40,352 bases of DNA from Cryomorphaceae bacterium ASP10-05a (GTDB lineage Bacteria; Bacteroidota; Bacteroidia; Flavobacteriales_D; Sanyastnellaceae), in the NCBI GenBank assembly GCA_000981645.1, contig LAQC01000003.1:128488-168839 (forward strand). The letters run 5' to 3'. Below the pieces are notes generated by a model. The model made no database searches. It had not been told where the DNA came from and saw only the letters and a program-made list of their open reading frames with translations. The translations under genes and the position numbers were made by a program. Below, in pieces: positions 1,729-37,078 of the stretch (its first letter is position 1; every line of letters begins with the position of its first letter).

Positions 1729-1737
1729 GCGTTGCAA
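1729..1737 (+). repeat. GCGTTGCAA motif copy 1 (intergenic)
   Basis: A 9-base copy of the dispersed motif, sitting in the 16-base gap between two convergent genes. It is the only copy outside a coding region. Confidence 0.75.
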
Positions 1738-1740
1738 TAC

Positions 1741-2502
1741 TTAATTCTTTTGTGCCCTTATTTCTGCAAGAGTTTTGTATTTCGAATGTACTCCCCGAGC
1801 TGATATCTTAGCTATTTGAAGCCCCAGGCTGCCATCGAGGAAACCTCGTTTTAGCACATACATTTTAATGAATTTAGCAGTTCCGCTTATGATAGGTTTT
1901 AAGGGTCCAAAAGCTTTTTTCGCATGAAACATTTTTTCGGCCGATAAATCTGCGTATTTCTTAGTGCGTGCTATGTGGTCTGCTTTGGAGTTGTAAGAAT
2001 AGTGGAGTAAGTCGCCCGGAAGATGCTTAATCTTTAGTTCATCAGGAAGGTGAAGTGTTTCGTGCACGAAATCCCCAGTCCAATGAACATCACGCTTATT
2101 GAAAATTCTGACTTTTACATCTGGATACCACCCTGAGTGCCTTATCCATTTTCCGCAGTAGTTAGTTAGCCTGTTAAAACTATAGGTGCCTTCTAGACCT
2201 GATACTTTTTGAAGTAAGATCGATTTTTTAAGAGCGGGGCTAATTACTTCATCTGCATCTATACTCAAGATGAAGTCGTTTTTTGAAGCAGTATTTCCTA
2301 AGTTTTTCGTCTTAGCGTACCCCAGCCATTGAGATTCTAAAATTGAGGCTCCTAGTTCTCTGGAAATAGCTAAAGTCTTATCAGTGCTCCCAGAGTCTAC
2401 CACCAAAACTTCGTCCACGACTTCTGCTAAAGACAAGATGCACCTTTCGATGTTCTTTTCTTCGTTTTTAGTGATTATTACGGCAGTAATTGAGGTATAC
2501 AT
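1741..2502 (-). CDS. Family 2 glycosyltransferase (WaaE/KdtX-like)
   Basis: A cytosolic or membrane-associated glycosyltransferase of 253 residues. The GT-A nucleotide-binding start SITAVIITKNEE is followed by LVVDSGSTDKT and the metal-binding DxD-type motif in SIDADE near residue 90. The region GYAKTKNLGN between them, and the short length, match the WaaE/KdtX group of lipopolysaccharide-core glycosyltransferases (KDTX-like GT2). The track starts at TTG 2511; the ATG at 2502 (MYTSITAV) is a better start. It faces the O-antigen ligase-type gene, consistent with a role in surface glycan assembly. The sugar donor and acceptor are unknown. Confidence 0.85.
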   Translation of the reverse strand: MYTSITAVIITKNEEKNIERCILSLAEVVDEVLVVDSGSTDKTLAISRELGASILESQWLGYAKTKNLGNTASKNDFILSIDADEVISPALKKSILLQKVSGLEGTYSFNRLTNYCGKWIRHSGWYPDVKVRIFNKRDVHWTGDFVHETLHLPDELKIKHLPGDLLHYSYNSKADHIARTKKYADLSAEKMFHAKKAFGPLKPIISGTAKFIKMYVLKRGFLDGSLGLQIAKISARGVHSKYKTLAEIRAQKN

Positions 2503-2622
2503 TAAGGGCAATAGTATAAAACTTATGCCAAATAATAAGGAGTCTGAATTATTTATTGAGGTAATCCTTTATGATTTTATAAAAACTTCTGTAAAAATGG
2601 ACATTCTTGTTAATAAGAAATG

Positions 2623-2653
2623 TTTGAACAGCCCCGTGAGATGAGTAATTTTG
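2623..2653 (+). promoter_or_regulatory. purD promoter, Bacteroidetes type (TTTG-N19-TAATTTTG)
   Basis: TTTG at 2623-2626 and TAATTTTG at 2646-2653 are separated by 19 bases, an exact match to the Bacteroidetes consensus TTTG / TAnnTTTG. The predicted transcription start near 2660 lies after the TTG start proposed by the ORF track and supports the ATG at 2672. Confidence 0.7.
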
Positions 2654-2671
2654 TCTGTAAATAAATTGGTT

Positions 2672-3955: not shown

Positions 3956-3987
3956 CTTAGAGGTAAACAATGCTAGAATAGAGCCGC

Positions 3988-4176: not shown

Positions 4177-4193
4177 GACTAAAAATTTCATCG

Positions 4194-8172: not shown

Positions 8173-8865
8173 ATGAAATTTGGTGTAATTACTTTTCCTG
8201 GATCTAACTGTGATCAAGATATTATTTACGTTTTAAGAGATGTTTTAATGCAGCCTGTAGAGGAGCTTTGGCATAAAGACACTGATTTGAAAGGGTGTGA
8301 TTTTATTATTCTTCCTGGAGGATTTTCTTATGGTGATTACCTTAGAAGTGGAGCTATAGCTAGATTCTCTCCAATAATGAGTGAGGTAGTAAAGCATGCT
8401 AATTCAGGAGGATATGTGATGGGTATTTGTAATGGATTCCAAATATTATGTGAGTCTGGTCTGCTTCCTGGAGTGTTAAGGCACAATGAAAACCAAAAGT
8501 TTATTTGTAAAAACGTACATCTAAAACCAGCTTCTAGTTCTACGATTATCACTGAAAATCTAGATGAATATAAAGCGTATAAAATTCCTATTGCTCATGC
8601 AGAAGGAAATTATTTTGCTACGCCAGAGCAGATGAAAGAAATTGAGGATAACGACCAAGTTCTTTTTAGATACTGTAATGAAGAAGCACAAGTCACGAGC
8701 GGTTCTAATCCTAATGGTAGCTTAGATAATATCGCTGGAATTTGTAATAAGTCTAAAAACGTTTTCGGTATGATGCCGCATCCAGAAAGAGCTGCGGATT
8801 TCGAACTGACAAGCACAGATGGTCGTGAGATTTTCGATGGAATGCTAAAAGCGGCTTTAGTATAA
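8173..8865 (+). CDS. purQ: Phosphoribosylformylglycinamidine synthase, glutaminase subunit PurQ
   Basis: Glutaminase subunit that releases ammonia from glutamine for FGAM synthase, step four of purine synthesis, in the cytoplasm. It is a class I glutamine amidotransferase. The N-terminus KFGVITFPGSNCDQD is diagnostic of PurQ. The nucleophile is Cys86 in GICNGFQIL, and the His203 and Glu205 partners lie in MMPHPERA. The 230-residue length is that of a free-standing PurQ, not of the glutaminase end of a fused PurL. A separate small PurL and PurS should therefore be encoded elsewhere. The ATG at 8173 is preferred over the track start GTG 8155. It has its own promoter and sits between a terminator and dxs. 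Confidence 0.95.
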   Translation: MKFGVITFPGSNCDQDIIYVLRDVLMQPVEELWHKDTDLKGCDFIILPGGFSYGDYLRSGAIARFSPIMSEVVKHANSGGYVMGICNGFQILCESGLLPGVLRHNENQKFICKNVHLKPASSSTIITENLDEYKAYKIPIAHAEGNYFATPEQMKEIEDNDQVLFRYCNEEAQVTSGSNPNGSLDNIAGICNKSKNVFGMMPHPERAADFELTSTDGREIFDGMLKAALV

Positions 8866-8954: not shown

Positions 8955-10883
8955 ATGAGCGAATACATAGCCGGCCCACTTTTATCCAAAATAAATCTTC
9001 CTGAAGATTTAAGGAAAAATATTTCAAATGAAGAACTAGTTCAAGTTTCCAACGAACTAAGACAATATATTATAGATATAGTTTCCGAAAGAGGTGGTCA
9101 CTTCAGCGCTAGTCTCGGAGTTGTAGAACTGACCGTAGCGTTGCATTATGTGTATAACACACCTTATGATCAGTTGGTTTGGGATGTAGGTCATCAAGCT
9201 TATGGACATAAAATTCTAACAGGAAGAAAGGATATTTTTCATACAAATAGAGTTTATAACGGATTAAGCGGATTCCCTAAAAGATCTGAAAGCGAATACG
9301 ACACTTTTGGAGTAGGTCATTCATCTACTAGTATATCTGGAGCATTAGGCATGGCGGTTGCCAGTAAAATTAAGGGAGAAGACAGGAAGTGTATAGCTAT
9401 AATAGGTGACGGAGCGATGACCGCTGGTCTTGCTTTCGAAGGATTAAACCATGCTGGGTCATTAAGTAACGATTTACTGGTAGTGCTCAATGATAACTGC
9501 ATGAGCATAGACCCTAACGTAGGGGCTCTTAAAGAATACCTCACAGACATTACCACATCTCATACCTATAACAAAGTAAAAGATGAGGTTTGGAACTTAC
9601 TGGGTAAAGTCAGTAAATTCGGTCCTAATGCTCAGAGCATAGCCCAGAAAATACAGGATGGAGTAAAGTCAGCTCTGCTGCAGCAGAGTAATTTATTCGA
9701 ATCATTAAATTTTAGGTATTTCGGTCCAATAGATGGCCACGATGTGGAATATTTGGCTAAGGTATTAAAGGATTTAAAAGACATTCCTGGACCCAAAATT
9801 TTACACTGTGTAACTAAAAAAGGAAAAGGTTTTCAGCCTGCAGAAGATGGTTCACCTACTCAGTGGCATGCTCCAGGGATTTTCAATAAAGACACGGGAG
9901 AAATAGTTAAAGTAGTTCCCAAAAGCCCAGAGCCTCCTAAGTATCAGGATGTGTTTGGCCATTCTATTATAGAGTTAGCAGAGAAAAACGAGAAGATAGT
10001 AGGAGTTACTCCTGCTATGCCTACAGGTTGTTCACTGAAATTTATGATGGAGGCTATGCCCGATAGAGCTTTTGATGTGGGAATAGCAGAGCAGCATGCA
10101 GTAACTTTCTCAGCAGGAATGGCTACTCAAGGATTAATCCCATTCTGTAATATCTACTCTTCATTTATGCAGAGAGCTTATGATCAGGTTATACATGATG
10201 TAGCTATTCAAAACTTAGATGTAGTATTCTGTTTAGATAGAGGAGGATTAGTAGGAGCAGATGGTCCTACTCATCATGGAGCTTATGATTTAGCTTTCAT
10301 GAGGTGCATTCCTAATATGATCGTTTCTTCTCCTATGAATGAAGAAGAATTAAGAAACCTGATGTTTACTGCTCAGGAAGGTCACGGTCCATTCTCTATA
10401 AGGTACCCGAGAGGAAAAGGGGTGATGACAGAATGGAAGACCCCGTTTAAAAAAGTGAAAATCGGTACGGGTAGAAAAGTAAAATCTGGAGAAGACATAG
10501 CCGTATTGACTATTGGGCCCATAGGAAACAATGCACTTACCGCATGTACAAGCATGGAAGATAAAGGGATAAGCGCTGCACTTTACGATATGCGCTTTGC
10601 AAAGCCAATAGATGAAGTATTACTTCATGAAGTATTCTCTAAATTCAAAAAAGTAATCACTGTAGAAGATGGATGTATCCAAGGGGGTATGGGGTCTGCC
10701 GTGATTGAATTTATGGCAGAGAATAATTACTCCGCCCACGTAACTAGGTTAGGAGTTCCAGATAAGTACATTGAGCACGGAACACAGTCAGAATTATATA
10801 CCGAGTGTGGTTATAACACCGCTGACATAGAAAAAGCCATATCCGATATGGTAGCTGTTGGATCCAAGCAAATGGCTATCTGA
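8955..10883 (+). CDS. dxs: 1-deoxy-D-xylulose-5-phosphate synthase
   Basis: Condenses pyruvate and glyceraldehyde-3-phosphate to DXP using thiamine diphosphate and Mg, the first step of the MEP isoprenoid pathway. The 642 residues follow the family order. The N-terminal domain has HFSASLGVVELTVALH and DVGHQAYGHKILTGR. The ThDP/metal-binding GDGAMTAG lies near residue 149, with its partner NDNCMSID near 178. The pyrimidine-binding domain has the catalytic Glu in VGIAEQHAV near 378. A transketolase C-terminal domain begins around 500 (KVKIGTGRKVKSGEDIAVL). The MEP pathway supplies the farnesyl group used by the heme O synthase encoded 27 kb downstream. Length and start agree with the family. 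Confidence 0.97.
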   Translation: MSEYIAGPLLSKINLPEDLRKNISNEELVQVSNELRQYIIDIVSERGGHFSASLGVVELTVALHYVYNTPYDQLVWDVGHQAYGHKILTGRKDIFHTNRVYNGLSGFPKRSESEYDTFGVGHSSTSISGALGMAVASKIKGEDRKCIAIIGDGAMTAGLAFEGLNHAGSLSNDLLVVLNDNCMSIDPNVGALKEYLTDITTSHTYNKVKDEVWNLLGKVSKFGPNAQSIAQKIQDGVKSALLQQSNLFESLNFRYFGPIDGHDVEYLAKVLKDLKDIPGPKILHCVTKKGKGFQPAEDGSPTQWHAPGIFNKDTGEIVKVVPKSPEPPKYQDVFGHSIIELAEKNEKIVGVTPAMPTGCSLKFMMEAMPDRAFDVGIAEQHAVTFSAGMATQGLIPFCNIYSSFMQRAYDQVIHDVAIQNLDVVFCLDRGGLVGADGPTHHGAYDLAFMRCIPNMIVSSPMNEEELRNLMFTAQEGHGPFSIRYPRGKGVMTEWKTPFKKVKIGTGRKVKSGEDIAVLTIGPIGNNALTACTSMEDKGISAALYDMRFAKPIDEVLLHEVFSKFKKVITVEDGCIQGGMGSAVIEFMAENNYSAHVTRLGVPDKYIEHGTQSELYTECGYNTADIEKAISDMVAVGSKQMAI

Positions 10884-11591: not shown

Positions 11592-14402
11592 ATGCTATCT
11601 CAAGACAAAGAAAAGAAACTCTTCTTATTAGATGCTTTTGCACTCATTTTCAGAGCGTATTATGCGTTTATAAAAAACCCACGAATAAATTCTAAAGGGC
11701 TGAATACCTCAGCCATGTTCGGTTTTACCAATACGCTCTTAGAGATTATCAATAACGAGAAACCTACTCATATAGCAGTAGTGTTTGACCCTCCAGGTGG
11801 TTCCAAGCAGAGAAAAGAAGATTTTCCGGCTTATAAAGCCAATAGAGAAGAAACCCCTAATGATATCATACTCTCGATTCCGTATATAAAAAGAATCATA
11901 GAAGGATTTAATATTCCATGTTTAGTAGCTCCAGGATTTGAGGCAGATGATCTTATAGGAACCTTAGCCAAGCAGGCAGAAAAAGAAGGCTATACCACCT
12001 ATATGATGACTCCCGATAAAGATTATGCTCAGCTAGTATCGAGCAATATCTTTATGTACAGACCAGGTAGATTTGGAAACCCGGCTCAGGTTTGGGGAAT
12101 AGAAGAGATTCGAGAAAAATTTAATGTGGAAGACCCCATTAAGATTATAGACTTACTTGGCCTTATGGGCGATAAGGTAGATAACATACCTGGAATACCT
12201 GGGATTGGTCCTAAGACAGCATCCAAATTGCTGAAAGAATTCGGAAGTGTAGAAGGTATTATAGAGAATGCAGACAAGCTTAAAGGAAAGCAAAGAGAAA
12301 ATGTAGAGAATTTTGCAGAGCAGGGAATTGTGTCAAAACAATTGGCTACCATAATCTTAGATGTGCCTAATGAAGTAAACTTCGATGTATTAAACTTAGA
12401 GGAGCTTGATAAAGATTTACTTAGAGAGGTCTTCACTGATTTGGAGTTCAGAACCCTTAGCAAAAGAATTTTAAACGAAGAGATTCAGTCTGTTCAAAAC
12501 GAACAACCCTCATCCCCACAGATATCCATGTTTGGCAATGCTCCGGCTATGCCGGCAGCAGCTGAGGTTGAATTAGAGGATGTGCCAGTAGAAATGAAAA
12601 CAATTCTTACCACTGAGCATGATTATAGATTATTAGATGATGACGTTTTAAGAGCTGAGTTCATAAAAAGACTGCAGAAGGAAAAGTCCTTCTGTTTAGA
12701 TACAGAAACCACAGGCTTAGACCCGATAGAAGCTGAGCTTGTAGGGATTTCCATTGCAGTAAAAGAAGGAGAAGCATTTTATATTCCAGTGACGAGTGAA
12801 AACGCGTTGCAACGCCTAGAAGAGCTCAAACCCATACTACAAGACCCCAAAAAGGAAATAATAGCGCAGAACTTCAAGTACGATTATAAAGTGCTAAGGA
12901 AGTATGGAGTAGATATAAAAAACAAGGTGCTGGATACCATGCTCGTTCATTACTTAATGAATCCCGATATGAAGCATGGAATGGATTTATTGGCAGAAAC
13001 TTATCTGAATTATCGTCCTGTTTCTATTACAGAATTAATAGGGAAAAAGGGAAAAAATCAGAAGAGTATGAAAGATTTAGAACCTGCAGAGGTGCTAGAT
13101 TATGCCGCTGAGGATGCTGATATTACGCTTCAGTTAAGGAATAAATTCTCTTCGGAATTAGAGAAACCACACCTAAAAGATCTTTACGAAAAAGTAGAAG
13201 CACCATTGATTCATGTGCTAGCAGATATAGAATTAGAAGGAGTAAATATAGATGAGGCTCATCTGAGAAATTACTCTAAGGAATTGGAAGTTATACTTGT
13301 AGAGCTAGAAAAAAGCATAAAACTCACGGCCGGAACTGAATTTAACTTGGATTCACCTAAGCAGTTAGGTCAGATACTTTTCGAGGTGTTGAAGATTTCA
13401 GATAAGCCGAAGAAAACTCCTTCTGGGCAGTATAAAACATCAGAGGATGTGCTAGCCACATATAAAGAGGACCATCCTATTATTTCTGAAATTCTAGATT
13501 ATAGACAGCTTAGAAAATTAAAATCTACGTATGTGGATCCATTGCCAGAGATGGTGAGTAAAACCACAGGCAGACTGCACACTAATTACATGCAAACCGT
13601 AGCTGCTACGGGAAGGCTAAGCTCTAATAACCCTAACCTACAGAACATTCCTATCCGATCAGAAAAGGGGCGTGAAATCAGGAAAGCGTTTATTCCTAGA
13701 GATGAAAATCACACGCTGGTAGCGGCAGATTACTCTCAAGTAGAATTAAGAATTATAGCCGCGTTAAGCAATGAATCCGCTATGATAGAAGATTTCGTTT
13801 CTGGAGCAGATATTCATGCGGCGACAGCGAGTAAAGTGTTCGGAGTTTCTATAGATGATGTAGACAGAGAGATGCGTAGCAAAGCGAAAGCTGTAAACTT
13901 CGGTATTATCTATGGACAAGGCGCTTTCGGTCTGGCTCAAAACCTCGGAATTAAGAGGGGTGAAGCCAAGGAAATCATAGAGAATTACTTCCAGAAATAT
14001 TCTAGACTTAAAGAATATATGGCGGAGAATGTAGAATTTGCCAGAACGAATGGGTATGTAGAGACTATACTGGGAAGAAGGAGATATCTTAAAGACATTA
14101 ATTCAGGAAATGCCATAGTAAGGGGTTTCGCTGAAAGGAATGCGGTAAATGCACCTATCCAAGGTTCAGCGGCAGATGTAATCAAGCTAGCCATGATTAA
14201 TATTCACAAAAGATTTAAGGAAGAGAATTTTAAGTCAAAGATGATTATGCAGGTACATGATGAACTGGTCTTCGATGCGCATAATTCAGAGCTTGAAATC
14301 ATTAAGCCGCTGATTAAATCAGAGATGGAAAATGCGTATAAAATGTCTGTTCCTTTATTGGTAGAAGTAGATATGGGCGCTAATTGGCTAGAGGCACATT
14401 AA
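11592..14402 (+). CDS. polA: DNA polymerase I
   Basis: Repair and replication polymerase that removes RNA primers and fills gaps. All three domains are present in 936 residues. Residues 1-290 form the 5'-3' exonuclease (FLLDAFALIFRAYYAF, GFEADDLIGTLA, GDKVDNIPGIPGIGPKTA). About 340-530 form the 3'-5' exonuclease, with intact catalytic residues Asp370 and Glu372 in DTETTGLD, NFKYDYKVL, and YAAEDADIT. The polymerase domain has motif A DYSQVELRI at Asp713, the O-helix RSKAKAVNFGIIYG, and motif C QVHDEL at Asp890. Proofreading should be active. It starts with ATG 11592, 70 bases after the DUF2480 stop, and no perfect -7 element is seen between them. Confidence 0.97.
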   Translation: MLSQDKEKKLFLLDAFALIFRAYYAFIKNPRINSKGLNTSAMFGFTNTLLEIINNEKPTHIAVVFDPPGGSKQRKEDFPAYKANREETPNDIILSIPYIKRIIEGFNIPCLVAPGFEADDLIGTLAKQAEKEGYTTYMMTPDKDYAQLVSSNIFMYRPGRFGNPAQVWGIEEIREKFNVEDPIKIIDLLGLMGDKVDNIPGIPGIGPKTASKLLKEFGSVEGIIENADKLKGKQRENVENFAEQGIVSKQLATIILDVPNEVNFDVLNLEELDKDLLREVFTDLEFRTLSKRILNEEIQSVQNEQPSSPQISMFGNAPAMPAAAEVELEDVPVEMKTILTTEHDYRLLDDDVLRAEFIKRLQKEKSFCLDTETTGLDPIEAELVGISIAVKEGEAFYIPVTSENALQRLEELKPILQDPKKEIIAQNFKYDYKVLRKYGVDIKNKVLDTMLVHYLMNPDMKHGMDLLAETYLNYRPVSITELIGKKGKNQKSMKDLEPAEVLDYAAEDADITLQLRNKFSSELEKPHLKDLYEKVEAPLIHVLADIELEGVNIDEAHLRNYSKELEVILVELEKSIKLTAGTEFNLDSPKQLGQILFEVLKISDKPKKTPSGQYKTSEDVLATYKEDHPIISEILDYRQLRKLKSTYVDPLPEMVSKTTGRLHTNYMQTVAATGRLSSNNPNLQNIPIRSEKGREIRKAFIPRDENHTLVAADYSQVELRIIAALSNESAMIEDFVSGADIHAATASKVFGVSIDDVDREMRSKAKAVNFGIIYGQGAFGLAQNLGIKRGEAKEIIENYFQKYSRLKEYMAENVEFARTNGYVETILGRRRYLKDINSGNAIVRGFAERNAVNAPIQGSAADVIKLAMINIHKRFKEENFKSKMIMQVHDELVFDAHNSELEIIKPLIKSEMENAYKMSVPLLVEVDMGANWLEAH
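12804..12815. repeat. GCGTTGCAACGC perfect palindrome, copy 2
   Basis: Full 12-base palindrome inside polA, read there as Ala-Leu-Gln-Arg, in the stretch between the first and second exonuclease motifs. Confidence 0.8.
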
Positions 14403-18335: not shown

Positions 18336-19676
18336 ATGAAGTTATCTATTGGTTTTTTATTTTTTAGCGTTGCAATAAGTACCTCTTTAATTTCGCAAAA
18401 CGGTGATAATATAGCACTGCTAGCGAATTGGGATGGAACGGATGTTCCTTTTAATGGCTCTGCTAAATACAATGATGTATGGGGTTTTGAAATAGATGGA
18501 CAAGAGTTTGGATGTATGGGATCTACATTAGGGACACATATATTTTCGCTACCAGAGAATAATCATATAGAAGAAGTAGCTTATGTGCCTGGAAGATTCC
18601 AAGGGCCAGTTGTTCATCGTGATTTTGCTTTTTTTGAAGGTTATCTGTATGCTGTTTGTGATCAAGGAAGCAGCTCTCTCCAGGTGATTAATGTTTCTGA
18701 CCTACCCAATGAGTTTTCAGTGGTTCTAGATGATACAACTAATTTTACCACTGCTCATAATATAACAGTAGATGAGTCGGGTATGAAGTTATACGTTTCT
18801 GGACCTTCTGGAAGTGCATTGAAAGTATTTGATATATCAGCCACACCTGAAAACCCGCAACTTGTCAGTGAATTTAACCTTGTAGAATATGTGCATGATG
18901 TGTTTGCTAAAGATAATGTGGCCTATCTAAGTGCGGGCTCTCAAGGGTTGTTTATTTATGATTTTTCTGACCCGGCTAATCCTGCCATTATTTCTTCTTT
19001 AGATGGCTATCCTGATGAGGGTTATAACCATTCAGGTTGGCTTTCGCCAGATGGTAATTATTTTGCCTTTGCCGATGAAACACCTGGAAAAAGAATGAAA
19101 ATCATAGATGTCAGAGATCCATCAGACTTGGAGGTCATTTCTTTATTTAATAGTGGTTTAAATAGTAACACAATGCCTCATAATTTGGAGTGGATAGGAG
19201 ATAAAATTTATGTTTCGCACTACTATGATGGGCTTCAGGTTTTCGATGTGAGTGATGTAGAAAATCCAGTAGTTTATGCGCACTATGATACATATCCTCA
19301 AGAAGATATTGATGGTAGAGGGGCTTGGGGTGTTCATGTGATGCCCTCAGGTAGAATCTTGATTTCTGATCGTCAATCAGGTTTTTATCTTTTCAGTAAC
19401 CAAGAAAATAATGCCGATGAATTGGAAATATGGTTGTATCCAAATCCGGCAGAAGATCAGATGTGCGTTAACCTAGTAAAAGAAAGTTATTTTAAGGTTA
19501 GATTTCAAATTCACGATAATAAAGGCCTTCTAGTCAAGGATGAGACTTATTATAATGGTGAACAGCCTATTAATGAGTACCTCTTCAATACGAAGAGTTT
19601 TAGTGCTGGAATCTATAACTTAACTATGGTCATTGATGATAATCTAGTAAGCAAGGCTAAGTTTCTAATTAGGTAA
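18336..19676 (+). CDS. Secreted choice-of-anchor B / LVIVD-type beta-propeller protein, T9SS
   Basis: A 446-residue secreted protein. Signal peptide (MKLSIGFLFFSVAISTSLISQ) then NIALLANWDG and YNDVWGFEIDGQEFGCMGST, the opening seen in choice-of-anchor B proteins. Repeated segments of the form LQVINVSDLPN, LKVFDISATPENP, LFIYDFSDPANP, MKIIDVRDPSD and LQVFDVSDVENP are LVIVD-type blades of a beta-propeller. The C-terminal 75 residues form a T9SS type A sorting domain beginning at WLYPNPAEDQ. Known members are surface-associated and of undefined activity. It ends five bases from the convergent giant adhesin gene, with no terminator between. Confidence 0.88.
   Translation: MKLSIGFLFFSVAISTSLISQNGDNIALLANWDGTDVPFNGSAKYNDVWGFEIDGQEFGCMGSTLGTHIFSLPENNHIEEVAYVPGRFQGPVVHRDFAFFEGYLYAVCDQGSSSLQVINVSDLPNEFSVVLDDTTNFTTAHNITVDESGMKLYVSGPSGSALKVFDISATPENPQLVSEFNLVEYVHDVFAKDNVAYLSAGSQGLFIYDFSDPANPAIISSLDGYPDEGYNHSGWLSPDGNYFAFADETPGKRMKIIDVRDPSDLEVISLFNSGLNSNTMPHNLEWIGDKIYVSHYYDGLQVFDVSDVENPVVYAHYDTYPQEDIDGRGAWGVHVMPSGRILISDRQSGFYLFSNQENNADELEIWLYPNPAEDQMCVNLVKESYFKVRFQIHDNKGLLVKDETYYNGEQPINEYLFNTKSFSAGIYNLTMVIDDNLVSKAKFLIR
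18367..18375 (+). repeat. GCGTTGCAA motif copy 3
   Basis: 9-base copy inside the signal-peptide region of the choice-of-anchor B gene, read as Ser-Val-Ala-Ile, a different frame from the polA copy. Confidence 0.75.
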
Positions 19677-19681
19677 TTGGC

Positions 19682-22600
19682 CTATCTTAATAGACTTACT
19701 TGTCCTCTGTAAGTGACTTTGTTGGCGGTCATCGCGTCTTGGACTTCAAGAGTCCAAGTGTAAACATCGTTTCGAGAATAATAGTCTCCTGAGTCTACAG
19801 AGCCATCCCAAGGCATGCCGGGTTGAGTCGTTTCGAAAATAAGTTGACCTTCTCTTGTCCATATTTGGAATAGATAATTGTCACTTGAGATACCCAAGGC
19901 TATAGGTCTAAATACTTCGTTTAGATTGTCTCCGTCTGGAGAGAAGGCATTTGGCACATTAACTAGTACCACTCCTTCTATTACTAAAAGTTTGCATATG
20001 GTGTCTGCACACCCAAACTGATTCTCTGCTTGTAAACAGATGTTGTAAGAGTCTAAGCTTATTGGGTCAAATTCGAAATAAGGATTTGCGCCAGTGGCGG
20101 AGAAGGCTCCTTCAGCTTCCCAAGCATAATTTGTCGCTCCATTACTCAAGTTTATGAACTGCACTTCAGATTCTAAAATGTTGACAGGATTAGGCGACCA
20201 TTCAAAATCTGCTGTTGGGTAACCATATACTATTATTGTTGGATTGTTCAGAGATACACCTGTGCAGCCATCTTCAGATGTTACACTAAGAAAAGGACTG
20301 AAGTTACCTGGAGTGGTATAAGTGTATGTAACGTCAGTACAAATGGGTAAGGAGGCATTTCCATTTCCGAAATTCCATTCGCAGTTTCCTAATAAGTCGA
20401 TATCAGTAGTATTTGAAAACTCTACAGTTACAGGATAGCATCCATTTATGGCGTCTGTAGTAAAAGTGGGAACAGGCGTAACATTAACTGTAGCTATAAA
20501 GGATGCTACTACGGGTAATGAGCAGCCGTCTGTGACAGTTACTTCATAAGTAGTGTTTATCAGTGGTTCTACAGTGGTGATACAATTGTTTATGATGCCA
20601 ATTTCTGGGATGTCCCAGAAACAGCTAAGATTACCATTCCCACCGGAAACGATTGACTCTAATACGATTTGTTCTCCTTGGCATATAGTTATATCATCAT
20701 TAACCTGAACTTCTATAACGGAGGGAAAAGTAGCCAGCATAGCTAATGTATCTGTAAAACATTGACCATTATCATCTGTAGCATACACCTGAACAGACAC
20801 ATCACTCGTAGGCACGAATGAGACTATATTGTTATTCGTGTCAAACTCATCTGTGCTTGGAATCCAATAATAAATGTAATCACCTATTCCGCCACTAGCG
20901 GTGGCTTCAAAAGAAATGTTATCCCCATCACAGATGTCGGTGGTTTCAAAATTTGTAGTTAAGAAAATCTCCGGATTAGAAGTTAAAGTGACCACTGTGT
21001 CAGCTTGACATCCTATATCACTTAGTACCGAAACGCTATAACCGTTAACGGAAAGCTCTGTGAAGTTTGGGTCAAGTAATTGCAACGCACCATTAACCGT
21101 ATAGGAGTTTCCGTTTACCGCTAGAACTTCTATACTGCCTGTTTCATCTCCAAAACAAACTGGATTAGTAATTAGGATGTCAGAGATGAAGTATTCAGGC
21201 AATTCACTAATAGTGATTATGCTGTCTATGCTACAACCAATGTCGTCACTAAGTGTAACCGTATAATTATCTGCACACAAGTTTGTAAGGTTGGGTACAG
21301 GGTCTCCATTCGAATCTGCCCATGTTTCTACCAAAGGTGCAAGCCCTCCACTTGAGGATGAGGTGATTTCTCCATCACAGGTTTCTGAACAAACTTCAAG
21401 AGAAAAATCTAAATCTAAAATTAGGGCAGGATTAACATTAACTATAACCGTATCTAGATGAAAGCAACCAAGATTAACAAGGTCTTCTATCCGCAGTATA
21501 AAAGTGTCTGTGATTTGGGTGTTAAGCACATTAGGTGTGGCTGTGTTATAATCATCAAGATTTCCATTGTCTAGCCAAGTTATAGTTCCTGACCCCGCGC
21601 CATTAAGTGATGCAGGTTCATCGAAGCACACTGTAAAATCAGATCCAGCGTCAGATATAGGTTGAGGAGTAACAGTTATGAGTAGTGTGTCATAATTGAA
21701 ACACATTCCGTTTGTTACTTCTAAATAAACTTCAAGTTGAATGTCGGACATTCCAGTATTAGCAGTAGTGATTGCCGGAGGGAAAGCTCCTGTAAGAATG
21801 TCCAATACATCCGAGTCATTAGATGTCCATTGATAATCTAATAATAAGTCGTCAGAGGTTCCTAGGGTTACTTCGCTATTTGGGCATGAGCTAAAATCTG
21901 CGCCTGCATCTACTAGTGGAAGAGGTTCATCAGTAATAATAAGGTTGGCCGTTAGTGTTCCAGAACAATTGTTACTGTCCGTGAAATTAATTAAGGTGTA
22001 TTCTCCTGAAATTAGTACAAATGTTGAATCTGAAGAAGTAGTGTTTATGAACGGGTTGAGACTTCCTGAATTGACTTCTTCTAATTCGTAATTAAACGGA
22101 GCGGCTCCATCGGTAATGTTGATGAAGATTTGGGTAGAATCATCTGTGCAGATAAAACTATTACCTGTTAAAGTAGCGTTAGGGGTTGTGTCTTCTATCA
22201 CGGTATGAAAAGAAGTGATTGTATCATTGATACACCCATCTGAGTTTGTTACAGTTTGGATCGTATATATTCCTGGGATACTTGCAGTAAAAGTACTATC
22301 TCCAATGAAAAACCCTACACTGTCTTCTATAATCGTGTTATTTGGGTCTAAAATTTCAAAGTAAAGGGGAGAAGTACTAGTTATGTTTAGAGGGACTTCT
22401 GTGCTTTCCCCTGAACAGATGTTTGATTCACCGTCTAAATTGGCGAGAGGTAAATCCAAGAGAGTGAGTTCTACCTCTCCTATTATAGTTCCTGCACATT
22501 CGTAATTATCTTCAACAGATGTAATAATATAAGAGCCTTCATCTAGGATGTAATAATCAACGGGTGAAGTACTTATTTCTAGTTCTTCTATAGAGTTGGG

Positions 22601-24907: not shown

Positions 24908-24939
24908 TTGAATTTGAAAAAGTACAAATTTTACATTTG
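24908..24939 (+). promoter_or_regulatory. Upstream promoter-like element (TTG-N21-TACATTTG)
   Basis: TTG at 24908-24910 and an exact TAnnTTTG (TACATTTG) at 24932-24939, spacing 21. It points right and lies 115 bases before the lamin-tail gene. It could be a second promoter for the operon, giving a long leader, or could start a small RNA. Confidence 0.5.
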
Positions 24940-24992
24940 CAGGCTTCGTTGTTAGCTTTATGTTAATTCTGCTGTCGGGTTTAATTATCGCG

Positions 24993-25021
24993 TTGAATGC
25001 ATTAAAGTTTGATTAATTTTG
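24993..25021 (+). promoter_or_regulatory. Promoter of the lamin-tail/TonB receptor/PLD operon (TTG-N18-TAATTTTG)
   Basis: TTG at 24993-24995 and TAATTTTG at 25014-25021 with an 18-base spacer, an exact fit to the Bacteroidetes consensus. The leader to the ATG at 25054 would be about 27 bases. Confidence 0.7.
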
Positions 25022-25053
25022 CGCCATAATTTATCTACACAAACTTACAGAGC

Positions 25054-25989
25054 ATGAAATCAAATTTTACTTTTTTTACTTTACTAATTCTTACTGTTTT
25101 TTCTTCTTTCCAGTCAAATGGACAGGAGTGTTCTGACTTAATTATCTCTGAAGTAGTGGAGGGATGGTCTAATAATAAAGCAATAGAAATATACAACCCT
25201 ACAGCTGCAGCTATTGATGCTTCAGAATATGGTTTAGTGAGATTCCAAAATGGAAGTACCACTCCAGGGAATATTACATATTTAACTGGAGTTTCCATAG
25301 CTCCCTATGATGTGTATGTCGTCGTGTTGGACAAAAGAGATCCTGATGGAGTTGATTTTGAAGCACCAATTTGGGATGAATTACAATTACAAGCAGACAT
25401 TTTCGTAAACCCATCATATAATGATGGTCAAGAAGTGATGTATTTCAACGGTAATGATGCCTTAGCTCTCCTCAAGGATGACGGTCAAACGTTAGTAGAT
25501 GTGTTTGCTAAAATAGGGGATTCACTAAACCCTGATGGATGGGGTGGGTATTTAGATGCTGAAGGTGAGCAGGCTTATATCTCTAAAGACCACACTCTAG
25601 TTAGAAAAGCTTCTTTTACAGAAGGTTATACAGTCAACCCTGAGTCTTTTGACATCTTAAATGAATATGACTCTTTGTCTGCCAATACGTTCGATCAATT
25701 AGGATTTCATATTTGTGAATGCGATGTGAATAGTGTTGAGAAATTTGAATCTTCAAAAGGAATTAAAGTTTTCCCTAACCCTTTAGCCAACGGTTTTGTT
25801 ACTGTTACAGCTTCAGAGAGAATCGAGGCGATACTTATTTTTGATACTACAGGAAAACTTCTTTTAGAGGAAAAAGTCGATGCGTTGCAAAGCACTTATT
25901 TAGATTTAACTGCAATTCCATCAGGAACGTTTTTCTTAAAAGCAAGACTAGAATCTGGGGCAGAGATTTCTCAGTTACTAATAAAGTAA
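25054..25989 (+). CDS. Secreted lamin-tail-domain protein with T9SS sorting domain
   Basis: A 311-residue protein. After a signal peptide (ending SNGQ) the mature part starts ECSDLIISEVVEGWSNNKAIEIYNPTAAAID, the beginning of a lamin-tail (LTD) domain as found beside extracellular nuclease domains in ExeM/NucH-type proteins. It spans about residues 25-225 and no catalytic domain is attached. The last 75 residues are a T9SS type A sorting domain (IKVFPNPLANGFVTV). It is the first gene of a three-gene operon, 21 bases before a TonB-dependent receptor. A binding role at the surface is likely. Ligand is unknown; nucleic acid is one possibility. Confidence 0.85.
   Translation: MKSNFTFFTLLILTVFSSFQSNGQECSDLIISEVVEGWSNNKAIEIYNPTAAAIDASEYGLVRFQNGSTTPGNITYLTGVSIAPYDVYVVVLDKRDPDGVDFEAPIWDELQLQADIFVNPSYNDGQEVMYFNGNDALALLKDDGQTLVDVFAKIGDSLNPDGWGGYLDAEGEQAYISKDHTLVRKASFTEGYTVNPESFDILNEYDSLSANTFDQLGFHICECDVNSVEKFESSKGIKVFPNPLANGFVTVTASERIEAILIFDTTGKLLLEEKVDALQSTYLDLTAIPSGTFFLKARLESGAEISQLLIK
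25882..25890 (+). repeat. GCGTTGCAA motif copy 5
   Basis: Lies inside the sorting-domain region of the lamin-tail gene, read as Ala-Leu-Gln. It is followed by AGC, so the palindrome is only partly completed. Confidence 0.75.
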
Positions 25990-26010
25990 TTCATAATAAA
26001 AACCATATAA

Positions 26011-28881: not shown

Positions 28882-28893
28882 AAAACACACGTT

Positions 28894-31089
28894 ATGAAAT
28901 CATATTTATTAGCATTATTAGCGCTTTGCAACGCACTACTTTTATCAGCTCAGACTGACATACAGGATCTTAGAGATAACTATGCTGTAGGTCAAGTAGT
29001 GACTATTACAGGAATAGTTACTCATGGAGAAGAAATGGGTTCTTCTGTTAGGTATATGCAAGATGAATCTGCAGGGATAGCTATATATTCTGGAGCTTGG
29101 GAAGGTTTTACTACTCCTTCTAGAGGAGACGAAATCACTGTGACAGGAGAAATCACTGAGTTTAACGGGTTATTAGAAGTAGGGCCCAATTTAAGTGCTG
29201 TTACTATTAATAGCACAGGGAATGAACTTCCAGATTTTGAATACATAGATCTATCTGATTTTAATGAAGGTGTAGAAGGAGAACTTGTAAATTTTGATGG
29301 AGCTCAATTCCAGGATGGAGGAAGTACCTTTGCCGGAAATAACACTTATACTTTCATTCATGAGGGTGAGCAGTCTATAATATACCTTAGAACAGGCAGC
29401 GCTTTGGAAGGACAGATTATCCCAGCTGGACAGATTACGCTGAGAGGGATAGTGTCTCAGTTTACTTTTGATGGTTTTGGTGGATATCAACTGTTGCCTA
29501 GAGATATGGAAGACTTAATTTCCAATTCAACTATTAATCTAGCCTCTCAGTTGACTCAGTCATCTCACGATGAAAGTTCTATTACCTTAAATTGGTTAAC
29601 GGATACTCCAGGTACTACAGTGCTTTATTATGGAACAGATGCTGACAACCTAACTGAGACGGCTTCGGATATGGCAGCAGTAACGAGTCATGAGGTGACT
29701 ATGACTGGTTTAGAGCCAGGAACAGTGTACTTCGTTTATGCTGAGTCGGCTAATGATGATTCTGCAGTTCAGTCAAGCGTATCTTCATTCGTCACAGTAA
29801 GTGAGTCAAGCGGAGATATTCATGTTTATTTTACTGGGTCTGTAGATACGAGCGTTGCAACGCTAGATGAGGCTATCTCTCTAGGAGCAGCTACCAATGA
29901 TACTATAGCAGCATATATAGACAGAGCACTATCTACGATTGATTTAGCGGTTTATAATAATAACGACCAAACGATTATGAACGCGGTGGATGATGCTTAT
30001 GATAGAGGGGTTCAAATTAGGTACATTACTCAAGGTTCTAATGCTAACATAGGGTTAGGTCAAATAAATTCTGAAATTCCAGTTTTAGAAAGGCAAGACG
30101 AAAATGGTTCTGGAATGCATAATAAGTTTGTAATCATTGACGCTGATGATACCGATAACTGTGCTCTAATTACAGGCTCTACAAACTTCACTACGAACGG
30201 ATTAGTTGAGGATTATAACAATGTAGTATTCTTTCAAGATCAATCGATTTGTAGAGGGTATAGAGTTGAGTTTGAGGAAATGTGGGGTGGAAGCGGTTCA
30301 CAGCCAATAGTAGGGAACAGTAAGTTTAGTTCGCTTAAACTAAATAACACGCCCAAGCAATATACTATAGGTGGTGTGCCTGTTGAAGCCTATTTTTCAC
30401 CAACTGATGGTGTAACTGATGCTATTAAGTCGGCTATCCAGACAACTGACTCTGATTTAGATTTTGCCCTTTTAGTGCTCACTAGAGATGATTTAACAGA
30501 GGCTATCATAGAAGAAGACAACCTCTTTTTAGTAGTAGCTAGAGGCATGATAGAACAAGTAAGTGGGAATGGATCAGATTTTCAAACGTTATTAGATGGC
30601 GGTGTAGATACAGAGAGTCATGAGGGTATTTTTCCTCAGCTTCACCATAAATACTGTATCATAGATCACAGCAGTCCAGATTCAGATCCGCTAGTAATTA
30701 CTGGTTCTCATAACTGGAGCTCTTCAGCAGAAACTGTAAATGATGAAAATACAGTGATCATTCATGACGCGAGTATAGCCAATCAGTTTTACCAAGAATG
30801 GTATCAAAGATGGTCTGAGTTAACTGTAGGAGTGGAGGAAGTAGAAAATCAGTGGGATGTGAGGTTTTATCCTAACCCTGCATCAGATGTAGTTAACTTG
30901 TACGTGAATAACACTGGAAGCTCTAAACTATCTGTCAGCTTGCTAGACATTACTGGAAAAGAGGTTTATCAGTCAAGTTTACAAGGTAAAAAGCATCTAT
31001 TAGATGTATCCTCTATGAGCCATGGGGTTTATACGCTAATGATTCATGATGGACAGTATTCTTATGCTCAGAAGTTAGTTATTCGCTAA
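28894..31089 (+). CDS. Secreted OB-fold / FN3 / phospholipase D-like protein with T9SS sorting domain
   Basis: A 731-residue secreted protein. A signal peptide (ending LLLSAQ) is followed by an OB-type nucleic-acid-binding-like domain at about 20-210 (GQVVTITGIVTHGEEMGSSV). A fibronectin type III domain lies at about 215-300. The PLD domain is at about 310-640, with two intact HKD motifs: HNKFVIID starting at His409 with GSTNF after it, and HHKYCIID starting at His584 with GSHNWSS after it. Both halves needed for catalysis are therefore present. A T9SS type A domain (VRFYPNPASDVVNL) ends the protein. PLD-superfamily members cleave phosphodiesters in phospholipids or DNA. The OB domain favours a nuclease, which is inference. 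Confidence 0.9.
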   Translation: MKSYLLALLALCNALLLSAQTDIQDLRDNYAVGQVVTITGIVTHGEEMGSSVRYMQDESAGIAIYSGAWEGFTTPSRGDEITVTGEITEFNGLLEVGPNLSAVTINSTGNELPDFEYIDLSDFNEGVEGELVNFDGAQFQDGGSTFAGNNTYTFIHEGEQSIIYLRTGSALEGQIIPAGQITLRGIVSQFTFDGFGGYQLLPRDMEDLISNSTINLASQLTQSSHDESSITLNWLTDTPGTTVLYYGTDADNLTETASDMAAVTSHEVTMTGLEPGTVYFVYAESANDDSAVQSSVSSFVTVSESSGDIHVYFTGSVDTSVATLDEAISLGAATNDTIAAYIDRALSTIDLAVYNNNDQTIMNAVDDAYDRGVQIRYITQGSNANIGLGQINSEIPVLERQDENGSGMHNKFVIIDADDTDNCALITGSTNFTTNGLVEDYNNVVFFQDQSICRGYRVEFEEMWGGSGSQPIVGNSKFSSLKLNNTPKQYTIGGVPVEAYFSPTDGVTDAIKSAIQTTDSDLDFALLVLTRDDLTEAIIEEDNLFLVVARGMIEQVSGNGSDFQTLLDGGVDTESHEGIFPQLHHKYCIIDHSSPDSDPLVITGSHNWSSSAETVNDENTVIIHDASIANQFYQEWYQRWSELTVGVEEVENQWDVRFYPNPASDVVNLYVNNTGSSKLSVSLLDITGKEVYQSSLQGKKHLLDVSSMSHGVYTLMIHDGQYSYAQKLVIR
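28926..28934 (-). repeat. GCGTTGCAA motif copy 6
   Basis: Plus strand reads TTGCAACGC, within the signal-peptide region of the PLD gene. It is antisense to that gene, where it encodes part of Leu-Cys-Asn-Ala. Confidence 0.75.
29852..29863. repeat. GCGTTGCAACGC perfect palindrome, copy 7
   Basis: Inside the PLD gene. The symmetry extends one base on each side to AGCGTTGCAACGCT, and it is read as Ser-Val-Ala-Thr. Confidence 0.8.
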
Positions 31090-32055: not shown

Positions 32056-33514
32056 TATATATAAAGCGTTAGTTTGGTTTGGGGTTTTACTTATAGCCAT
32101 AAACGTATCCGGCCAGTTGGATTTGTTTCCACTGCAGCAGGATTATATTGAAGAGTCTAGATATTCTTATGGAGATTTAGACTCAGCTACTCATACTTCT
32201 ATACTGCCATTTTCTGTAAAAGACTCAGAGCTATCTGAGTCTTATTTTTACAATGACACCTCGCTATATTACAGTCTTTTAGCAGCCAAGGTTTTTAAGG
32301 ATGACTTGTTTTCCATAAACGAAGAAGATTTTGTGCTCAGAATAAACCCACTATTCGATTTTAGAGGAGCCAAGGATTTGATAGATACCAGTACTTATGC
32401 GGATACTACTCTATTTATACAGAATTCTAGAGGATTTAAAATGGATGGTAAAATAGGAAAGCGGCTCTTTTTCCAAACAGGATTTTTAGAAAGTCAGTCT
32501 TACTTACCGAGTTGGCAGAAAACCTATGCAGATACTAATCTGGTCATCCCTGGAATGGGCAGACATAAGGCGTATAAAGACAATGGGTTTGATTATGCCC
32601 AATCTTATGGATGGGTAAACTACTTTCCTGCTAAAAACATCAATCTCTTCTTTGGCCATGGAAAAATGTTCTCAGGACATGGCTATAGGTCACATTTATT
32701 AAGTCACCAAAGTTTTAATTTCCCCCATTTAAAAGCCTCAGCTACTCTTCTAAAGGGGAAATTAAAAGCTATGTGGAGTCTAGCAGCGTTGCAATCTCTA
32801 ACCAGGCAACCTTTGGGGGAAGTTCCAGAATCACTATTCAAGAAAAAATCAGCTACATTTTCTTCGATAAGTTATTTGGTAGGAAAAAGAGTAGAACTGT
32901 CAGTTTTTGAAACCAATATATGGAAGAGGTACAGTGAGTTTTCTGGGACTGTTCCTCTAAATGGACTAGCGTATGCTCCTGTGCCATTATTAGGATATTT
33001 AACACAGCGAGTAGATTCTCTTCAGTCAGCTAGAATTGGATTTAATGGACTCTTAAAAATCTCAAATAGAATTCAGTTTTATTCTCAATATCTAATAGAG
33101 ACTGAAGGCCTTCAATTGGGAATTCGAATAAACGAATTGGGGATAAAAGGATTAAGAGTCCAGGCAGAATATAATCAAGCTAACAAGGTGACTGAAATGG
33201 ACCCACTAGTCAGTTTTAGTCATTTAAATGAAGGGCTAGGACATCCAGTTCAAGATACTTTTGATGAGGTGTTTATTTCTGTAAACTACATCAAAAACCG
33301 CTGGGTAGGTAAAGTGTCTTACTCCCAATTAAATAGCTTAACAGACAGAAAAACCCTAGATGTGAATGCAGCTTACCGAGTAAACGCTAAAACTAATTTA
33401 AAAATAGCCTTGGGTTACCTATATAGACATCAAGGACAAGGAAGTAGCTCTCAATCTGGGCTTTTCTACTTTGGTGTGAAAACTTCTGTATTTGATTCCT
33501 TCTATAATTTTTAA
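32039..33514 (+). CDS. RemB/Wzi-like outer-membrane beta-barrel protein (first copy)
   Basis: A secreted or outer-membrane protein of 491 residues. The track begins at a TTG, but ATG 32039 ([20 protein letters not shown]) gives a clean signal peptide ending NVSG and overlaps fcl by 17 bases. The core [19 protein letters not shown] with a later FPHLKA aligns by eye with IGNHTNFWGNGYRSMVLG and YPYLKL in the gene two positions downstream. The C-terminal part [17 protein letters not shown] likewise matches HRNQSLAHPLGTNFYE there. These are marks of the RemB (gliding) and Wzi (capsule) barrel group. The exact role is unknown; surface polysaccharide handling is likely from the neighbours. Confidence 0.75.
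32786..32794 (+). repeat. GCGTTGCAA motif copy 8
   Basis: Within the first RemB/Wzi-like gene, read as Ala-Leu-Gln. Confidence 0.75.
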
Positions 33515-34626: not shown

Positions 34627-36116
34627 TTAGGAAGTTATCGGTAGTAACTTTACTGCTGTATAGCCATTTTTTATTGGGACAAGAGAGAAGCCAGGACTCT
34701 TTGGCGCTAAACTCTCCTGTACTTATTCAGGAGTTTTATACGCCAGCTTCTTTTTCCGAATATCAAGGAAATGAGATTAAATTTCCTCTTAAAGTAAAAG
34801 CTAATTTAGATTTCCTCCTTAACACAGGAGGCTCTTTTTTCAACGAAGTATCTCCTGTTTACGCTGGTTATTTTAATGCGGGAGTAGTAATGAAAAACCG
34901 AAATAAAATCTTAAGCTTAGATTACTCTTTGGCTAGCTCAGGTTTAGGTGATTACATGTCTGAATTTGTAGACAGCACGGGAGTCCTGTCAGGGTTTGGC
35001 GTTGCAACGCAAGAAAAATTCGGCTATTTGGCCAATAGAATACGAGGAAGGTTTAATTGGCAAATGTCCAAGCATTTTAATGCAGAGATAGGAAATCACA
35101 CGAATTTTTGGGGGAATGGATACAGATCTATGGTTCTAGGAGAGAATACGACTCCATATCCATATTTAAAACTTACCACAAAAGTTTGGAAAATTAAGTA
35201 CACTAATTTATTTATGCAGCTCCGAGACCTGCAACCAGACGTGCCATGGAAAGACTCCAGGCAGAAATATGTAGCACTACACGCTATAGATTTTAAAGTT
35301 AATGAACGCTTTTCGTTTACCGTATTTGAATCCGTGGTTTGGCAATCCTCGGACACCTTATCCAACAGGAGTTTTGATATCAATTACTTAAACCCTGTAA
35401 TATTCTACAGACCAGTAGAGTTTAGTCAAGGGTCTGCCGATAATGTTCTGCTAGGAATCGCGGCTCGATTAAGTTTGGATAAAAACTTCATGTGGTATGG
35501 TCAGCTTTTTCTAGATGAGTTTTTACTATCAGAAGTGAAAAAGCGCGAAGGTTGGTGGGCAAATAAAGTAGGCATGCAAATAGGCGTTCAAGCGGCTAAT
35601 TTATTGCCAGGATTTTGGGCTTATTCAGAATTTAATAGTGCTCGACCCTTTACCTATACACACGGGAGTGTGCTTCAGAATTATGGCCATAGAAATCAGT
35701 CTTTAGCTCACCCATTAGGAACTAATTTTTATGAGTGGTCTACTGGGGCTCAGCTAGAAAAAAAGGAGTGGACCTTCACGGGAAGGTTTAATTGGGCGCT
35801 TTATGGGCGAGACTTAAATGGAGATAATTATGGAGGAGATATTTATAGGTCTTATAAGCAGCCTTATAGGACTTTCGATAACCAAATAGGTCAAGGAAAC
35901 ACCCACCATTCCTATATCACGCAGTTAACCGCTTCTAGAAAGATATTGAAAAACAGGGATGTGTTCTTTTTCGGAAGTTACACTTGGCGTCATGTACAAA
36001 ATCAGTTTGAATTAAATGATGAGCATGTTTTTTCCTTCGGAATAAGCTCCTCAGTCTATAAGATAAGCTCTAAAAATTCTAATGGAGCTTTGCCCAATTT
36101 ATCGAATGATTTTTGA
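34623..36116 (+). CDS. remB: Gliding motility protein RemB-like outer-membrane protein (second copy)
   Basis: An outer-membrane beta-barrel type protein of 497 residues with a short signal peptide (MIRKLSVVTLLLYSHFLLGQ). Landmarks are FYTPASFSEYQG, IGNHTNFWGNGYRSMVLG, PYLKLTTKVWKIKYTN, LNPVIFYRPVEFSQGSADN, SLAHPLGTNFYEW and a late RSYKQPYRTFDNQIGQGN. These fit the RemB family of Flavobacteriia, in which F. johnsoniae RemB is needed for wild-type spreading. It is translationally coupled to the WecA-like gene by a four-base overlap. A related copy lies upstream of that gene. RemB rather than Wzi is my judgement from these motifs. Confidence 0.75.
   Translation: MIRKLSVVTLLLYSHFLLGQERSQDSLALNSPVLIQEFYTPASFSEYQGNEIKFPLKVKANLDFLLNTGGSFFNEVSPVYAGYFNAGVVMKNRNKILSLDYSLASSGLGDYMSEFVDSTGVLSGFGVATQEKFGYLANRIRGRFNWQMSKHFNAEIGNHTNFWGNGYRSMVLGENTTPYPYLKLTTKVWKIKYTNLFMQLRDLQPDVPWKDSRQKYVALHAIDFKVNERFSFTVFESVVWQSSDTLSNRSFDINYLNPVIFYRPVEFSQGSADNVLLGIAARLSLDKNFMWYGQLFLDEFLLSEVKKREGWWANKVGMQIGVQAANLLPGFWAYSEFNSARPFTYTHGSVLQNYGHRNQSLAHPLGTNFYEWSTGAQLEKKEWTFTGRFNWALYGRDLNGDNYGGDIYRSYKQPYRTFDNQIGQGNTHHSYITQLTASRKILKNRDVFFFGSYTWRHVQNQFELNDEHVFSFGISSSVYKISSKNSNGALPNLSNDF
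34999..35010. repeat. GCGTTGCAACGC perfect palindrome, copy 9
   Basis: Inside the RemB-like gene, read as Gly-Val-Ala-Thr. Confidence 0.8.
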
Positions 36117-36149
36117 TAATTTCTATACATTTAGTCTTAAGAATTCGAC

Positions 36150-36157
36150 TACTTTTG
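36150..36157 (+). promoter_or_regulatory. -7 element TACTTTTG for the cytochrome oxidase assembly operon
   Basis: Exact TAnnTTTG. The transcription start would be near 36163, about 13 bases before the TTG start of ctaB at 36176, which supports that start. The -33 region (TTTAG at 36130) is weak. Confidence 0.6.
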
Positions 36158-36175
36158 TACGCTCAATAGTTCATT

Positions 36176-37078
36176 TTGACAGCAGCGATATTAAATCAAA
36201 TAAGTTATATTAAGTCTATTAAAATAAAAGACTTAGCCGAGTTGATGAAGCTTAAATTGTCGGCCTTGGTCGTATTGTCGGCTGTGTTGGGTTATTTCAT
36301 GGGGACATCTTCTCCTGAAATTTTGCAAATTGTTTACGTAATGCTCGGAGGGATGCTCCTTACAGGAGGTTCTAATGGTTTTAATCAGGTTTGGGAAAGA
36401 AACCAGGACGCTTTGATGAAGCGCACCATGAATAGACCTCTTCCGACAGGAAGTCTCTCCGTGGAAGCCGCTATAGTTTGGAGTACGATTGTTTCTACAG
36501 CTGGTATTTCTATTCTTTGGTTTTTGTTAAACCCTTTCTGCGGAATTTTAGGTGTGCTAGCGTTGTATAGTTATGTTTTTCTTTATACCCCATTAAAAAG
36601 AGTAAATAGTGTGGGCGTTACTGTTGGAGCTTTTCCGGGAGCCATACCTCCGATGTTAGGCTATGTGGCTGCAAGTGGATCTTTTGGGTTAGAGCCAGGG
36701 TTGTTGTTTGCGTTGCAATTTATGTGGCAGTTTCCTCATTTTTGGGCTATCGCGTGGGTAGCTAAAAAAGATTATGATAATGGGGGGTTCAAAATGCTCC
36801 CATTTAATAAGGGTAAAACCACATTTACGGCATTTTATATTGCCTTGTCTGCTTTCGTGCTAATCCCTGTAAGTATTTTGCCATGGTTCATAGGGAGTGA
36901 GGGTCCTATGATAGGAAATGTCGCAGGAGTCTCAACTTTAATTATCGGGATACTTTATTTCATGGTAGCTCTTAGGTTTGCATTAACAAAGGATGATAAA
37001 TACGCTAAGCAAGTAATGTTTGGCTCTTTTATCTATCTCCCTGTAGTACAGTTATTATTCGTTCTAGATAAAATTTAA
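36176..37078 (+). CDS. ctaB: Protoheme IX farnesyltransferase (heme O synthase)
   Basis: Inner-membrane UbiA-family prenyltransferase that adds a farnesyl group to heme B to give heme O for the terminal oxidase. It has 300 residues and about eight to nine helices. The prenyl-diphosphate site is seen in FNQVWERNQDALMKRTMNRP. The first Asp of the usual ERD..DA pattern is Asn here. The second loop has FLYTPLKRVNSVGVTVGAFPGAIPPMLGY and WQFPHFWAIAW. The start is TTG 36176; the first ATG (36245) would cut the conserved KDLAELMKLKLSALV region. It leads an operon with cytochrome oxidase subunits III, III and IV and SCO genes. Confidence 0.95.
   Translation: MTAAILNQISYIKSIKIKDLAELMKLKLSALVVLSAVLGYFMGTSSPEILQIVYVMLGGMLLTGGSNGFNQVWERNQDALMKRTMNRPLPTGSLSVEAAIVWSTIVSTAGISILWFLLNPFCGILGVLALYSYVFLYTPLKRVNSVGVTVGAFPGAIPPMLGYVAASGSFGLEPGLLFALQFMWQFPHFWAIAWVAKKDYDNGGFKMLPFNKGKTTFTAFYIALSAFVLIPVSILPWFIGSEGPMIGNVAGVSTLIIGILYFMVALRFALTKDDKYAKQVMFGSFIYLPVVQLLFVLDKI
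36710..36718 (+). repeat. GCGTTGCAA motif copy 10
   Basis: Inside ctaB, read as Ala-Leu-Gln. Confidence 0.75.

Follow-up and report, generated by a model that had tools for sequence, protein, structure and literature searches.

The window analysed here, a 40,352-nucleotide stretch of Cryomorphaceae bacterium ASP10-05a, carries repeated copies of the 9-mer GCGTTGCAA in a series of unrelated genes, some of them extended into the palindrome GCGTTGCAACGC. A preliminary description had listed ten places for the 9-mer, with the palindrome completed at 12804, 29852 and 34999, and all ten 9-mers (10/10) and all three palindromes (3/3, the two strands overlapping) are present there. The window belongs to genome G000, a 2.89-Mb draft of 44 contigs that is 85.5% complete, of which 1.18 Mb (41%) was read base by base; the four genomes of the genus that we compared (G000–G003) are all drafts.

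Close to the beginning of the window, the 9-mer followed by T (GCGTTGCAA-T; 1729..1737, plus strand) is intergenic and flanked by two convergent genes. The first full palindrome, GCGTTGCAACGC (12804..12815, both strands), lies in polA and is read as Ala-Leu-Gln-Arg; the same gene contains a tolerated variant of the word, GCGTAGCAA-A (13874..13882, plus strand). GCGTAGCAA also occurs at 8615..8623 on the minus strand and is enriched 23-fold in the 1.18 Mb of G000, and a palindromic variant, GCTTTGCAAAGC, occupies 10594..10605, with GCTTTGCAA enriched 13-fold in the same sequence. Further along, GCGTTGCAA-T (18367..18375, plus strand) is read as Ser-Val-Ala-Ile near the start of the gene for a T9SS-sorted protein, a minus-strand copy of GCGTTGCAA (21080..21088) lies in a large CHU_C/PKD adhesin-like gene, and GCGTTGCAAAGC (25882..25893), in the gene for a lamin-tail-domain T9SS protein, consists of a plus-strand site overlapping a reverse-strand GCTTTGCAA variant. 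The reverse arrangement, a minus-strand site overlapping a plus-strand variant, is found in GCTTTGCAACGC (28923..28934) at the start of a PLD/DUF5689 gene, and its 9-mer is kept at locus L208 of the sister species, G001. The full palindrome in a PLD-domain gene (29852..29863) is absent from G001, while the GCGTTGCAA-T site at 32786..32794 (plus strand, ORF 32009-33514) is kept there. A last full palindrome (34999..35010) lies in an ORF without Pfam match (34623-36116), and a last GCGTTGCAA-T site (36710..36718, plus strand) in a UbiA-family (ctaB-like) gene. The earlier statement that one copy is antisense and one intergenic holds in part: the copy at 1729 is intergenic and antisense copies occur, but at four places (12807, 28926, 29855 and 35002, all within plus-strand genes) rather than one. 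The site at 21080 is not antisense, since it encodes Ala-Leu-Gln in a minus-strand gene.

The abundance of the word had been judged far above chance, and this observation is right and understated. The window holds 13 strand hits of GCGTTGCAA compared to 0.11 expected from dinucleotide shuffles, and three palindromes compared to 0.00. Across G000 there are 317 + 327 = 644 strand hits, against 0 + 1 for the reversed word, and these correspond to 540 places, approximately one per 5.4 kb, because each of the 104 palindromes takes two strand hits; the palindrome thus accounts for about 20% of places, and its reversed control is found 0 times. The genome count proposed in the preliminary description, set against a third-order Markov model, gave 274 hits in 1.18 Mb of G000, where 1.3 were expected. 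Codon bias, which had already been discounted, was rejected as the cause: 878 ORFs contain 208 copies, compared to a mean of 6.6 and a maximum of 11 over 20 rounds of synonymous codon shuffling within genes. A protein repeat is contradicted by the several reading frames in which the motif falls, and a repeat or interspersed element by flanks that, apart from short T/A tracts, are almost flat. Taken with the shuffles, this leaves practically no room for an origin of the motif in chance, codon usage, a protein repeat or an interspersed element.

The motif array is restricted to one genus of Bacteroidota. All four genus genomes are rich in the motif, with GCGTTGCAACGC palindromes numbering 106 in G001, 44 in G002 and 33 in G003, whereas the roughly 450 other Bacteroidota genomes reach at most five (two at most in 56 genomes of the family and order, five in 395 drawn from the phylum). 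In other family members, counts of the 9-mer differ by no more than a few-fold from those of the reversed word in the same genome, and GCGTTGCAA is a top k-mer in none of seven family members (0/7). Some of those seven have top k-mers of their own. The nearest relatives by polA, at 59-65% identity, are Flavobacteriales/Crocinitomicaceae MAGs, and none of 27 genomes of such relatives is rich in GCGTTGCAA, one of them (L029) having a palindrome. Judged by polA, the family to which the genus belongs is most likely Crocinitomicaceae. A literature search for the 9-mer returned unrelated matches only.

The word follows a defined grammar. Positions 1-2 and 7-9 are almost invariant and position 6 varies little, with one-off words at positions 1, 2 and 6-9 at background in G000 (61 vs 60.2 expected), while T or A at position 3, G (weakly C) at position 4 and A (weakly G) at position 5 are tolerated, such variants being enriched 4-23 fold and the main ones 9-23 fold. 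After the 9-mer, 178 hits continue with A or T, 90 with the full CGC and only six with another C or G, so that 178 of the 184 non-palindromic hits have A/T at position 10. Palindromes are flanked symmetrically by a T-run at -3 to -8 and an A-run at +14 to +19; half-forms have the T-run on the GCG side. A grammar that is non-additive and symmetric in this way resembles what a dimeric DNA-binding protein would prefer.

Comparison with G001, which is 80% identical to G000 in DNA, indicates that the sites are held in place. The two genomes have 28 sites in common and 17 in one genome alone, a retention of 77% compared to 10% for composition-matched words (n=400) and 15% for random 9-mers; these conservation figures draw on approximately 35 to 55 sites for each pairing with G000, and on fewer in other pairs. 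Synonymous-site conservation, another check proposed at the outset, is pronounced: of 62 codons within sites that encode the same amino acid in both genomes, 56 are identical, whereas the behaviour of these codons outside sites predicts 25.3, including TTG in 15/16 (31% elsewhere), GCG in 6/8 (16%) and CGC in 8/9 (31%). In G001, as in G000, the fixed positions show only background numbers of one-off words (15 vs 14.6), and half-decayed sites therefore do not accumulate in either genome. Selection on the DNA itself keeps the sites at fixed positions, and in all genus genomes examined the motif is kept by selection at levels far in excess of those attributable to chance, codon usage or kinship.

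G003 shows a natural case of lost maintenance. This smaller, near-complete genome (2.3 Mb) is 91.5% identical to G000, and only 59% of G000 sites are kept in it, compared to 51% of random 9-mers, while 88% of its own sites are present in G000. One-off words at fixed positions are in excess (39 vs 19.9), which fits the expectation if maintenance had stopped, and the whole-genome motif density is lower. Taken over the whole set of sites rather than site by site, both observations favour loss in G003 over gains in G000 alone, and the decay is neutral-like. Retention in G002 is similar, with 63% of G000 sites kept and 92% of its sites found in G000; as there is little one-off excess, loss of the motif in G002 is only suggestive.

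On the chromosome, site density is uniform over the contigs (41% of G000; contigs unordered), and spacing is more even than random (gap CV 0.79, P = 0.001; variance 8.1 for a mean of 9.9 sites per 50-kb bin). No regional clustering of the macrodomain/ori-ter kind, as with matS or Noc, was seen over these contigs and 50-kb bins, which speaks against the macrodomain signal suggested in the preliminary description. Strand polarity is likewise absent, both relative to local GC skew (P = 0.33) and relative to gene strand (P 0.81), and on these grounds we rejected a directional repair or segregation signal of the Chi or KOPS type. The density of about one site per 5 kb is similar to that of Chi in E. 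coli; Chi, by comparison, is directional and not palindromic, and the palindromic copies here would act in both directions, making such a signal very improbable.

Coding DNA contains 83% of the sites. The density is nevertheless higher ahead of gene starts: divergent promoter DNA has 16 sites compared to 4.9 expected at coding density, convergent DNA shows no enrichment (2 vs 2.7 expected; 2/37 of non-coding or gene-edge sites), and the last 200 bp before gene starts carry 0.4-0.7 sites per kb, compared to roughly 0.12-0.19 deeper in genes, a 5' bias that is approximate inside ORFs because the start-codon calls are mechanical. Intergenic sites precede genes that are, as we take it from reading their protein sequences without a database call, mostly housekeeping genes (secA, metG, glnS, gltA, folA, glyA, purA, purL, pgk and uvrA), and no obvious candidate for an autoregulated regulator adjoins these sites. 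The excess of sites ahead of genes and in divergent promoters could be explained if the motif bound a global transcription factor, with the coding copies as by-products, but a promoter function cannot act at the 83% of sites that lie within genes, and those sites are conserved at synonymous positions; we consider this explanation improbable.

The resemblance to HIP1 of cyanobacteria that had been pointed out is borne out in style, since the motif is genus-specific, highly iterated, palindromic and spread across unrelated genes without a codon-bias origin. HIP1 (GCGATCGC) and alternate HIPs are likewise lineage-restricted, highly iterated palindromes in unrelated genes (PMC4390886). HIP1 has also been reported lost in some symbionts, and the motif here decays in the smaller genome G003. 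A leading model for HIP1 ties the word to DNA methylation, and HIPs are generally accompanied by a methyltransferase for the word (PMC4390886); in Elhai's model, methylation of the word combined with methylation-directed mismatch repair drives its accumulation as an epiphenomenon. A search of G000–G003 with PF00145, PF01555, PF02086, PF02384 and PF07669 (the C5, N6_N4, D12, N6_Mtase and Eco57I DNA-methyltransferase families) yielded no DNA-methyltransferase, although one of the four genomes is 99% complete and several family members outside the genus do carry such enzymes. The genus matches are weak only: those to PF02086 are, judging from their sequences, RsmD, adjoining coaD, and the PF07669 match that we read, a 234-aa ORF, looks like a TrmN6-like tRNA methyltransferase rather than a DNA enzyme. 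The absence of these five families means that the methylation site proposed in the preliminary description and the HIP1 model do not fit, and we give an origin of the HIP1 type very little credence. The motif further differs from HIP1 in being unrelated in sequence, longer (9-12 bp) and several-fold rarer than the approximately one per kb given for HIP1, and in having an accepted half-form and A/T-tract flanks.

A DNA uptake sequence, another of the roles suggested in the preliminary description, deserves closer consideration, as most of the features described above, apart from the palindrome and the promoter bias, would also be expected of one. Under this explanation, a surface receptor for natural transformation prefers DNA bearing the motif, and uptake with recombination spreads and preserves it, as with DUS in Neisseria and USS in Haemophilus. 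Like DUS of Neisseriaceae and USS of Pasteurellaceae, the motif is an exact, over-represented word of 9-12 bp in hundreds of copies that are evenly spaced and kept at orthologous positions; the conservation, even spacing and uniform spread parallel those of DUS, for which 71% of aligned copies are exactly conserved in all genomes, spacing matches conversion fragments and copies are over-represented in the core genome (Treangen 2008, PMC2397512). ComEC is present in three of the four genomes of the genus and in every other family member searched. In Riemerella, a member of the same order, transformation favours the organism's own DNA, and no DUS has been established there (PMC7965970). The position of intergenic sites ahead of the apparent housekeeping genes secA, metG, glnS, purA and purL would also suit uptake. 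On the other hand, DUS and USS are asymmetric words, and the motif here is a perfect palindrome at about a fifth of its places; its intergenic copies are enriched before gene starts and not in convergent (terminator) DNA, where the inverted pairs of DUS/USS lie; and G003, the species with the decaying motif, has an intact comEC that is under purifying selection (dN/dS 0.19). We place an uptake sequence second, as the main rival reading, and consider it less likely than not.

Given the palindrome, its symmetric flanking tracts and the excess of sites on the promoter side, we place first, as a tentative reading held at slightly less than even confidence, a chromosome-wide array of sites for a putative symmetric DNA-binding protein with a role at the level of the chromosome. 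GCGTTGCAA(CGC) would then be the recognition site of one sequence-specific, probably homodimeric protein of the genus, with TTT-NN-GCGTTGCAACGC-NN-AAA as the full site and GCGTTGCAA followed by A or T as an accepted, half-complete form. This protein would most likely organise the nucleoid or maintain the chromosome, preferring promoter-proximal DNA; methylation and the control of a classical regulon are less likely jobs. Palindromic sites of a dimeric protein in both coding and non-coding DNA are known from matS/MatP, NBS/Noc, SBS/SlmA and RBM/RacA. Against the array, these known organising sites, including those of matS, Noc and SlmA, are regionally biased and number in the tens, whereas the motif here is uniform and present in hundreds of copies.

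The four genomes provide a natural experiment, in which the motif is maintained in G000 and G001 and decays in G003, so that gene-content subtraction offers a way to look for the responsible gene. As an independent iterated palindrome, the motif bears on HIP1: a strongly selected word of this kind in a genus lacking the major DNA-methyltransferase families indicates that such words cannot in general be due to methylation. Should the motif prove to be an uptake sequence, it would be, as far as we know, the first described in Bacteroidota. With somewhat less confidence than we attach to the array itself, we suggest that one genus of Bacteroidota may organise or maintain its whole chromosome through a uniform, methylation-independent array of palindromes and a dedicated putative protein, with a species in which this maintenance has been lost.

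All four close pairs of the genus word in the source genome G000 (<110 bp apart; contig positions C9:45733-45766, C9:59945-59970, C7:35146-35254 and C8:37586-37649) were found in facing orientation, GCGTTGCAA...TTGCAACGC, a sample too small for a test; this relative orientation is that of the two halves in the genus-word palindrome. DNA methyltransferases of the main families (PF00145, PF01555, PF02086, PF02384 and PF07669) are apparently missing genus-wide (G000-G003); they are present in several other genera of the same family. Within the window, positions 18336-31089 hold a series of T9SS-sorted surface proteins, comprising a Por_Secre_tail protein, a CHU_C/PKD giant protein, a lamin-tail-domain protein, a TonB-dependent receptor and a PLD/DUF5689 protein.

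Repeated words were also observed in other members of the family. In G018, we observed an interspersed word of ~20 bp, TCGGCCTAAACGGCCGGATG, whose core, ACGGCCGGAT, has 11 copies in 60 kb (L232, L233, L234). G015 carries six copies of CGCTAGCG in 40 kb (L244, L245), mostly inside the longer TTCCGCGCTAGCGAA. Distinct from this word, the 7-bp unit ACCGTCA is repeated in tandem near L245 18443-18515. Among the polA relatives, a Crocinitomicaceae MAG shows a short tandem-like repeat around GGTGACTGAGTGAATC immediately 3' of polA (L029 13315-13516).

A 16-bp palindrome, CGCTTTCGCGAAAGCG, occurs in Nonlabens with 6 copies per 22 kb in L049 (2321, 3521, 8046, 9828, 13946, 16580) and 5 in L050 (2327, 3528, 8052, 13914, 16554), at positions that correspond between these two species and with partly symmetric flanks. 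It is perhaps a hairpin or terminator element, and is a further iterated palindrome within Flavobacteriales.
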